This document shows, piece after piece, positions 31,367 through 32,565 of a DNA stretch of 43,039 nt (positions are counted from its first letter, which is position 1; every line of letters starts with the position of its first letter). The DNA comes from Gammaproteobacteria bacterium (GTDB lineage Bacteria > Pseudomonadota > Gammaproteobacteria > GRL18). The position numbers and the translations under genes were made by a program. Below the pieces are notes generated by a model. It was given only the letters and a program-made list of their open reading frames with translations. It did not search any database and had not been told where the DNA came from. The stretch is taken from assembly GCA_026196615.1 (NCBI GenBank), contig JAPHSW010000012.1, positions 1-43,039 on the forward strand. The letters are read 5' to 3'.

Positions 31367-31756
31367 CTATATTAATGCTCTAACCTGTTCTTCTGTAACA
31401 GGGTGGGCAAGGACATGGTCAATATCATAATGTTCTTGCAGCTTACTGACAAATTCAAACTCTTTCTTACTGACTATTACAATAATTTTTGGATGATAAT
31501 CAGGGTATTTTTGTAATGTAATTAAAAGAGAATCCAGATTACTAATATGATTACTACTATAATTGGTACCAAAAGCATAAAAGAATTCAGCAACAATCAC
31601 GTCAGGTTTGTTCTTTTTAAGCGCATTCATCGCCTTTCTAATAGAAGGTAATTGTAATTCCTCATACCCCATTTCCTCATATAAATTTGACAGTTTCGGA
31701 TGGGTAGGTGATTCAATTACGGAAAAAACAATTGGCTTTGACAAACGACGTTCCAC
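31367..31756 (-). CDS. Receiver-like protein lacking the phospho-aspartate
   Basis: A 129-residue single-domain protein whose pattern fits a CheY-like fold: beta strand KPIVFSVIE, then PDVIVAEFF at the third strand, KIIVIVSK at the fourth and HVLAHPVTEEQVRALI at the end. Aligned to a receiver (PDLVLLD... and KP), the phospho-Asp is replaced by Glu (AEF) and the conserved Lys by His (AHP). That would make it a non-phosphorylated pseudo-receiver. An insert FGTNYSSNHISNLDSL sits after strand 3. The GTG start at 31756 has no good ribosome site. It lies 11 bp downstream of the small basic gene, whose hairpin may control it. Fold is inference from pattern. Confidence 0.6.
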   Translation of the reverse strand: MERRLSKPIVFSVIESPTHPKLSNLYEEMGYEELQLPSIRKAMNALKKNKPDVIVAEFFYAFGTNYSSNHISNLDSLLITLQKYPDYHPKIIVIVSKKEFEFVSKLQEHYDIDHVLAHPVTEEQVRALI

Positions 31757-31767
31757 TATGTTCAGGT

Positions 31768-32037
31768 TTAAAAATGAGCAGTTAAAATTTTGTTAAAGAC
31801 TGGTATTCTCAAAATCGTATTGAAAAAAGTAACAATAATAAAACTTTGAGAATACCAGTCCCTGGCACCTTTAACCTTCTCTGCTCGACGCTTGGCCTTA
31901 TGCGATTTATCATGAACATGAGACTTATTCATCAGAGGATGGTTAAACAACGGATTCCTCGGGACTATAGCTTGAGGAATAAGGGGTTGAGGAACGGGTG
32001 CTCCCCTATTACGCGCTTTACGCTTTCTTTTTGACAT
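31768..32037 (-). CDS. Small basic protein with a hairpin in its 3' coding region
   Basis: An 89-codon frame. Residues 1-57 are very basic (MSKRKRKARNRGAPVPQPL, then NHPLMNKSHVHDKSHKAKRRAEKVKG) and look like a nucleic-acid or ribosome-binding protein. From Asp60 to Val80 the frame runs through a perfect 16-bp inverted repeat, and the last 30 residues (IIVTFFNTILRIPVFNKIL) look like read-through of a noncoding hairpin. The E. coli rescue factor ArfA has a comparable gene plan, with a hairpin in the 3' coding region, but the ArfA KGKGSY motif is not visible here. It may be a different small basic protein with a 3' element inserted in its tail. No function is assigned. Confidence 0.5.
   Translation of the reverse strand: MSKRKRKARNRGAPVPQPLIPQAIVPRNPLFNHPLMNKSHVHDKSHKAKRRAEKVKGARDWYSQSFIIVTFFNTILRIPVFNKILTAHF
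31798..31860. repeat. Perfect 16-bp inverted repeat inside the small basic ORF
   Basis: GACTGGTATTCTCAAA at 31798-31813 and TTTGAGAATACCAGTC at 31845-31860 are perfectly complementary with a 31-nt AT-rich loop. On the minus strand it starts after codon 59 of the small basic ORF and lies about 42 nt before the next gene's start. It may be a terminator, an RNase III site or the ends of a tiny repeat element. No target-site duplication is evident. Confidence 0.75.
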
Positions 32038-32385
32038 TTTTAAATACCTTTATAAAAAATATGTTATTACTTGCTTATAATCAAGCATAGCTATTCTAAC
32101 GCAATTTTAAATGTAATACACAATCAAAAAATAATTGTCATCTTAGGCTTACGTATAATCAGGCTGGATATCAATCTCAATGTATATGGAGTTACATTGA
32201 AGTTGATTGAAAGAGATAGTATTTACAGAATTTTTAATTTTAATTTATTCATTTTATAAATAAATACCATTTATAAATAGAATTTCTAAATCATTCCAAC
32301 ATAATATATCCTATTTAAAAATTTAAAAAAAACATTTTAAATTTTTAAGACTTAACTTCCCTTAATCAACTTAGGAGTCATTATT
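32038..32385. other. AT-rich intergenic region
   Basis: No gene longer than 62 codons with any plausible composition is seen. The region contains ATTTATAAAT-type near-repeats around 32255-32275 and presumably the promoters of the basic ORF (minus) and the 59-residue protein (plus). No -35/-10 pair stands out because of the extreme AT content. Confidence 0.35.
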
Positions 32386-32565
32386 ATGTCCGCTCAAAGA
32401 ATGTTATTTTTTACTGTTGCAATATTAATCACACTTGGAATTTATTTTACAGGCTGGGAGACAGTTCATTGGACACTGTACTTACCAGTTGTCATGCTAA
32501 TTTTTGCAGGAATTTCTGGAATTTGTCCAGGACTACTTCTGTATAAAAAAGTGGGTTTTAAATAA
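32386..32565 (+). CDS. 59-residue two-helix membrane protein (DUF2892-like)
   Basis: A short gene with a good ribosome site (GGAG ten bases before ATG at 32386). The product MSAQRMLFFTVAILITLGIY continues with a Trp-rich linker (GWETVHWT), a second helix LPVVMLIFAGISG and a closing ICPGLLLYKKVGFK. The two-helix plan with a Gly-x-Cys-Pro at the end of helix 2 is the layout of DUF2892/YgaP-type membrane segments. Those are often linked to rhodanese or sulfur-related genes, although none is adjacent. The TAA is at 32563-32565. Confidence 0.6.
   Translation: MSAQRMLFFTVAILITLGIYFTGWETVHWTLYLPVVMLIFAGISGICPGLLLYKKVGFK

Follow-up and report, generated by a model that had tools for sequence, protein, structure and literature searches.

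A stem-loop in the 3' coding region of the mRNA for the ribosome rescue factor ArfA is described as the place where RNase III cuts or where the transcript ends prematurely, and the ArfA product is described as tagged by tmRNA; the full-length protein is described as unstable by virtue of its hydrophobic tail (PMC3989581). For BrfA, a terminator within the gene has been reported (PMC6881298). ArfT, presented as one of a broader family (PMC6514570), has 40 residues and a KKGGSTNKK stretch; its gene is reported to lack both a terminator and an RNase III site ahead of the stop codon (PMC6299226). Rescue and repair are paired in the PrfH-RtcB2 module, where RtcB is encoded beside the rescue protein (PMC9223846, PMC1586002). 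A review considers that additional small rescue factors may exist but that sequence similarity would hardly reveal them, so that genetic screens are needed (PMC8012679).

We analyzed a window of 43,039 nucleotides of gammaproteobacterial DNA (contig JAPHSW010000012.1), in which a small basic open reading frame (ORF) carries a long hairpin in its 3' coding region. The best reading is that this ORF represents an undescribed family of non-stop-encoded rescue factors, convergent with ArfA and BrfA and often coupled to RNA repair. Like ArfA (PF03889; E. coli YhdL), it encodes a small basic protein, about 50 to 60 residues long when truncated, with a 3'-coding stem-loop, a hydrophobic readthrough tail, and an expected control by trans-translation. 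Unlike ArfA, the family has no KGKGSY, no profile match, and no detectable homology to it, and many relatives of the small gene are linked to RtcB, which six ArfA loci are not (flanks of at most 1.5 kb). BrfA of Bacillus subtilis is, by its description, likewise a small protein with a basic C-terminal part and a coding region interrupted before the stop codon; a few distant members of the family resemble it in that the interruption is a terminator. It differs in taxonomic range, and in the close branch of the family a long stem that lacks a clear T-run takes the terminator's place. ArfT of Francisella, also by description, is a small gammaproteobacterial protein whose KKGGSTNKK recalls the KKGGxHxKS of many members, but its length and the reported lack of an interrupting signal set it apart. 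This likeness is a lead, as is the broader family reported for ArfT. With the PrfH-RtcB2 module, the family shares a candidate rescue protein encoded next to an RtcB ligase. PrfH, however, is a class I release-factor homologue with a GGQ motif, and neither an RF-1 domain match nor a GGQ was present in the small ORF. The three RtcB proteins tested here fell below the cut-off of the PrfH-linked subfamily.

The small ORF and its hairpin

The features of the locus are listed in Table 1. The original prediction of some 59 basic codons running into a perfect 16-bp hairpin was exact: 16 perfect pairs follow each other in a row, and the stem starts from the Arg59 codon. The underlying inverted repeat (31798-31821 and 31837-31860) lies within the 3' coding part of the ORF, and the stem extends to 22 uninterrupted pairs when G-U and adjoining bases are counted, being entered at codons Arg59-Asp60-Trp61. 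Residues 1 to 61 have a net charge of +14, and the GRAVY of tail residues 62 to 89 is +0.91.

Table 1. Features around the small ORF in the window, and positions of the gene of about 315 residues in related loci
Feature	Position	Strand	Remarks
Small basic ORF	31768-32037	minus	89 codons, ATG start
Likely Shine-Dalgarno sequence (AAAGG)	32047-32051	minus	nine bases 5' of the small-ORF ATG
Conserved basic core, residues 1-61	31855-32037	minus	expected portion of the truncated product
Hydrophobic readthrough tail, residues 62-89, with stop codon	31768-31854	minus	expected from uncut mRNA only
22-pair RNA hairpin in the 3' coding region	31795-31863	minus	5' arm 31863-31842, 3' arm 31816-31795; proposed RNase III-type cleavage site
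Receiver-like gene, downstream	31367-31744	minus	TTG start at 31744; GTG start at 31756 possible
Gene of about 315 residues	L174:1319-2266, L146:5051-6004, L149:6162-7136, L172:6154-7137		
Gene of about 315 residues	L173:4977-5924, L180:7395-8342, L183:5026-5958		

The 90-nt stretch containing the hairpin folds with an energy of -30.5 kcal/mol, whereas 200 dinucleotide shuffles averaged -11.1 (z = -7.0). The controls were the 90-nt 3' ends of 125 further ORFs (100 amino acids or longer) from the same loci in six frames, some of them surely spurious, with three frames that read through the family core excluded. Their mean z was -0.39, and z was below -4 in only 2 of the 125, one of which overlaps the hairpin of a family locus (L023) itself.

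For the small ORF, neither Pfam nor NCBIfam gave a match above cut-off, and the solved structures of the PDB contained no relative; ten further members likewise remained below cut-off in Pfam, as did ten in NCBIfam. AlphaFold returned a low-confidence helix continuing through the tail (pLDDT 64), which is too uncertain for use. We attributed a weak PADLOC match to a 4TM effector (E 0.0045) to chance. A known RNA element was rejected, the whole window having no Rfam match at the gathering threshold, and a plasmid or phage gene was rejected as well, since neither the window protein nor a relative's protein gave a match.

Conservation, covariation, and the wider family

Protein homologues were found in 11 of 57 genomes, the window's own included, which belong to two genera of one family; the search used a single query sequence, and absences within the family may therefore be missed homologues. 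One scan of a further sequence collection returned nine loci, identical to nine of the 11. A long hairpin was present at the same codons in all 11 members. This is in good agreement with the original prediction, which had expected homologues to keep a hairpin at that place and had named homologues ending without one as the finding to speak against it; none of the 11 ends in this way.

In the alignment of the 11 stems, 94.2% of the cells were paired, and two-sided changes occurred in 8 of the 22 pairs, a count matched by none of 500 shuffles. For every stem measure, at most 1 of 500 shuffles did as well, and sliding the arms against each other lowered pairing to 40 to 54%; the rows were cut by hand around the hairpin and hence lean towards that structure. 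Two members (L010 and L012) have Gly-Glu in place of the Asp60-Trp61 codons, so that the tryptophan at the end of the core is a glutamate there, and their 3' arm is altered to match, by substitutions only.

The core had a pN/pS of 0.194 over 33 codons in all 11 members and of 0.189 in a set of nine that omits L010 and L012. In the same nine, synonymous change was 0.244 in the 5' arm of the hairpin versus 0.660 in the core. The core is thus under purifying selection at the protein level, and the 5' arm is doubly constrained. The tail shows little conservation and is, for the most part, hydrophobic in the window's family.

Profiles built from successively wider alignments matched 12, 23, and 28 of 369 genomes of the class (E 0.001, 0.01, and 0.001, respectively), and family matches were found in 14 of 99 genomes of the order of genome G370. 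In the 18 close-branch rows, the core motif R-N-x-L-x-x-H-P-x-x-x-K-x-x-x-H-x-K-x-x-K-A-x-R shows no or almost no variation; the window protein reads KSHVH at the site that is KGGxH in most of the wider family. In the close branch, the hairpin is positioned around the last core residue, mostly a tryptophan, and z was below -4 in 21 of 24 members (11 from the window's own family, nine near G370, and four others), that is, in 10 of the 13 outside the window's family. The three weak folds were those of L039 (z -1.5), an RtcB-operon member without a strong hairpin, and of L065 (-1.9) and L068 (-2.9), both of which are still able to form a hairpin there. These statistics omit L062, which encodes the same protein as L061, and L070, which has a shortened core; L055, L056, and L058, which match weakly and are broken by an internal stop, were dropped altogether, and L132 was retained though its frame has 28 residues.

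The nine stems of the G370 group were paired to 98.3%, with two-sided changes in 4 of 20 pairs. Since 23 of 500 shuffles reached this count, the set is weaker when taken alone; its covariation score was reached by 1 of 500. Its rows, too, were cut by hand around the hairpin and share that lean. One additional loop base in L061 puts the 3' arm into another reading frame, with pairing kept. Similarly, a stop codon falls inside the hairpin in L065 and L067 of this group, and also in L025, and pairing is preserved. Pairing that persists through a shifted frame or an internal stop indicates that it is the RNA structure, and not the tail it encodes, that is under selection.

Distant-branch members carry motifs such as RNPVARSPLLRKGGxH. 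Under a strict rule, an intrinsic terminator lies inside the ORF in 4 of the 23 distant members that could be located (L046, L047, L053, and L126), a set that leaves out L029, L131, and L133, which were not placed by motif. The terminator of L044 lies past the stop codon, and the other 18 have none by this rule. Among 395 control ORFs, an in-ORF terminator occurred within the last 120 nt in none and across or after the stop in four; the span searched was up to 252 nt before the stop in the family against 120 nt in the controls, and the signal of L053 sits just beyond 120 nt. By eye, stems followed by T-rich DNA are also seen in L042, L043, L050, L057, and L071, which were not counted, and close-branch hairpins show no clear T-run on inspection.

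Neighboring genes and the linkage to RtcB

Of the 28 class genomes with a match, 12 encode RtcB within 6 kb and on the same strand, at full length in 11 and with at least 253 residues in one cut contig. Two further genomes (G058 and G212) have only the gene of 315 residues that elsewhere adjoins rtcB, and two (G075 and G219) have a short RtcB-like piece directly upstream. No RtcB-type neighbor was found in the remaining 12 of the 28, some of whose contigs are short. In the order of G370, RtcB adjoins 13 of 14 matches, G370 being counted in both sets. RtcB was found at none of 36 control loci (ArfA or release-factor genes), the flanks of which were shorter, about 1.5 kb a side or less. Pfam confirmed RtcB in all four proteins tested.

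The window gene and its ten family relatives had no RtcB within their 1.5-kb flanks, and the window genome encodes its RtcB on a different contig, in the vicinity of PcfJ-like, Band 7, and HTH genes. In the window's genus, RtcB was present in 5 of 6 carriers of the small gene versus 1 of 10 non-carriers (Fisher p 0.008), a comparison confounded by kinship and by the size and completeness of the genomes. The five carriers of genus g3, as well as G013, had no RtcB match in the genome.

Several side observations were made at these loci. The conserved gene of about 315 residues found in RtcB operons often adjoins the small gene (Table 1). The one member tested had no Pfam, NCBIfam, or PADLOC match; its AlphaFold model has a pLDDT of 80.5, and the best PDB folds, acetyltransferases, were non-significant (best E 0.067). 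RtcB-like pieces directly 5' of the small gene at L151:6143-6298 and L153:5760-5879 (52 and 40 residues aligned, respectively) are possibly remnants of a lost rtcB. In genome G277, there are two family matches (L150 and L164), only one of which RtcB adjoins. In the window genome, L166:3810-8213 (contig C130) holds RtcB together with PcfJ-like and Band 7 genes; the small gene was not detected at this site. The region L006:408-815, which lies upstream of the small gene, encodes a stand-alone archaeal-type threonyl-tRNA editing domain (PF08915, E 1.3e-36) and is followed by a DUF2058 gene; ORFs similar to that of L006 precede the small gene in the other four genus-g3 loci.

The window genome has tmRNA and SmpB. 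It also encodes three proteins with an RF-1 domain: two of full length, which are presumably RF1 and RF2, and a short one of ArfB size, these three names being given from frame size and the RF-1 domain only. As an ArfB-sized gene coexists in the genome, another factor may not be needed.

Proposed function and alternative readings

The family shares with ArfA and BrfA a basic core, a structure at a fixed codon, a tail, and, in some members, a terminator. We therefore propose that the small ORF is an undescribed alternative ribosome rescue factor, made from non-stop mRNA and probably release-factor dependent, and we put the probability of this at roughly 0.6. At the level of sequence, the proposal is based on the selected core, the covarying hairpin at a fixed codon, the in-ORF terminators of some members, the genes for tmRNA, SmpB, and release factors, and the RtcB link. 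The three weak hairpins of the close branch, the 19 of 23 distant members without a strict in-ORF terminator, and the position of the window gene, which is not beside RtcB, count against it, as do the missing sequence relation to ArfA, the KSHVH of the window protein, the variable last residue of the core, the coexisting ArfB-sized gene, and the low-confidence helix predicted through the tail.

As we picture it, the mRNA would form the long hairpin across the codons downstream of the basic core, and RNase III, or the in-ORF terminator in some distant relatives, would leave an mRNA without a stop codon. For the close branch, we favor RNase III over termination because a clear T-run is missing. 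The ribosome would stall near residues 60 to 66, and the peptide would be tagged and destroyed for as long as tmRNA-SmpB works. Once trans-translation is overloaded, the truncated basic peptide would survive, bind in the empty mRNA channel, and help a recruited release factor to free the chain. Uncut mRNA would instead add the hydrophobic tail, which probably destabilizes the protein.

More tentatively, at somewhat less than even odds, the factor may be a separate invention in many gammaproteobacterial families, in many of which it would work with the RtcB operon. RtcB would reseal cleaved mRNA, tRNA, or rRNA, the peptide would clear stalled ribosomes, and it would be on only when trans-translation is swamped.

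The basic core and the hairpin at a fixed codon form a signature, by which this candidate family was found from sequence alone. If the reading is true, some Gammaproteobacteria without a detected ArfA have another backup, and gene order ties ribosome rescue to RNA repair by RtcB, so that what bacterial RtcB operons protect becomes directly testable. In the open-access literature searched, as far as the texts were available, there was no recognized description of the motif or of a non-stop-encoded, RtcB-linked protein. The kind of factor, a non-stop-encoded rescue protein, is known; the family and its RtcB link appear to be new.

The very basic protein, the conserved hairpin, and the RtcB linkage would also suit autogenous control, in which the protein binds its own 3' hairpin, thereby tuning mRNA stability, and serves RtcB-type repair as an RNA-binding partner instead of rescuing ribosomes. 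We consider this unlikely. The hairpin sequence varies among groups, whereas its position relative to the core end is fixed, and a few relatives have an in-ORF terminator instead, so that truncation fits better than binding.

The original prediction had added that the hairpin could control the receiver-like gene; by processing, attenuation, or protection, it would then act on that gene, with the small ORF as a leader. Indeed, this gene lies directly downstream in 11 of 11 family loci, but its likeness to a receiver is weak, the Response_reg match (E = 0.08) being far below cut-off. In other families, however, the downstream genes differ or run oppositely, and the hairpin is still found at the same codon of the ORF. 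Since the hairpin stays with the ORF when the neighbor changes, control of the neighbor is disfavored, and the protein-level selection on the core also speaks against a mere leader; we regard this explanation as quite unlikely.

That the protein is a strongly diverged member of the true ArfA family is very unlikely. Size, charge, and layout are similar, and [DN]PLF and KKG-like stretches look ArfA-like by eye. The ArfA profile (PF03889), however, matched in none of the 57 genomes, the window's included, ArfA was absent among the Pfam matches of the small ORF up to E = 1, and hhalign gave a probability of 0.4% against an ArfA side of six rows only. A KGKGSY-type motif did not occur in the family alignments, so that profile and motif tests agree with the earlier statement that the protein is not ArfA by motif. 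As a positive control, ArfA was detected in 6 of 369 class genomes, all six genes showing KGKGSY or KGKASY and carrying a stem of the hairpin or terminator type, which lies within the ORF in five of them and spans the stop codon in the sixth. The ArfA-like layout that had been pointed out is thus borne out, and this feature, a hairpin or terminator inside the ORF, is present and conserved in the small-ORF family. The failed motif and profile tests accordingly lower the probability that the protein is ArfA, not that it works like ArfA.

Although mobile elements often yield long perfect inverted repeats, a local mobile or repeat insertion fused by chance to a short ORF is of negligible probability, since a genome search at E 0.001 found the 401-nt hairpin region only once, so that it is not a repeat element, and the hairpin sits at the same position, with covariation, in 11 of 11 family members.

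On the plus strand of the window, positions 32386-32565 hold a hydrophobic ORF of 59 residues with an AGGAG upstream and a weak likeness to the YgaP transmembrane domain (E 0.019, below cut-off).
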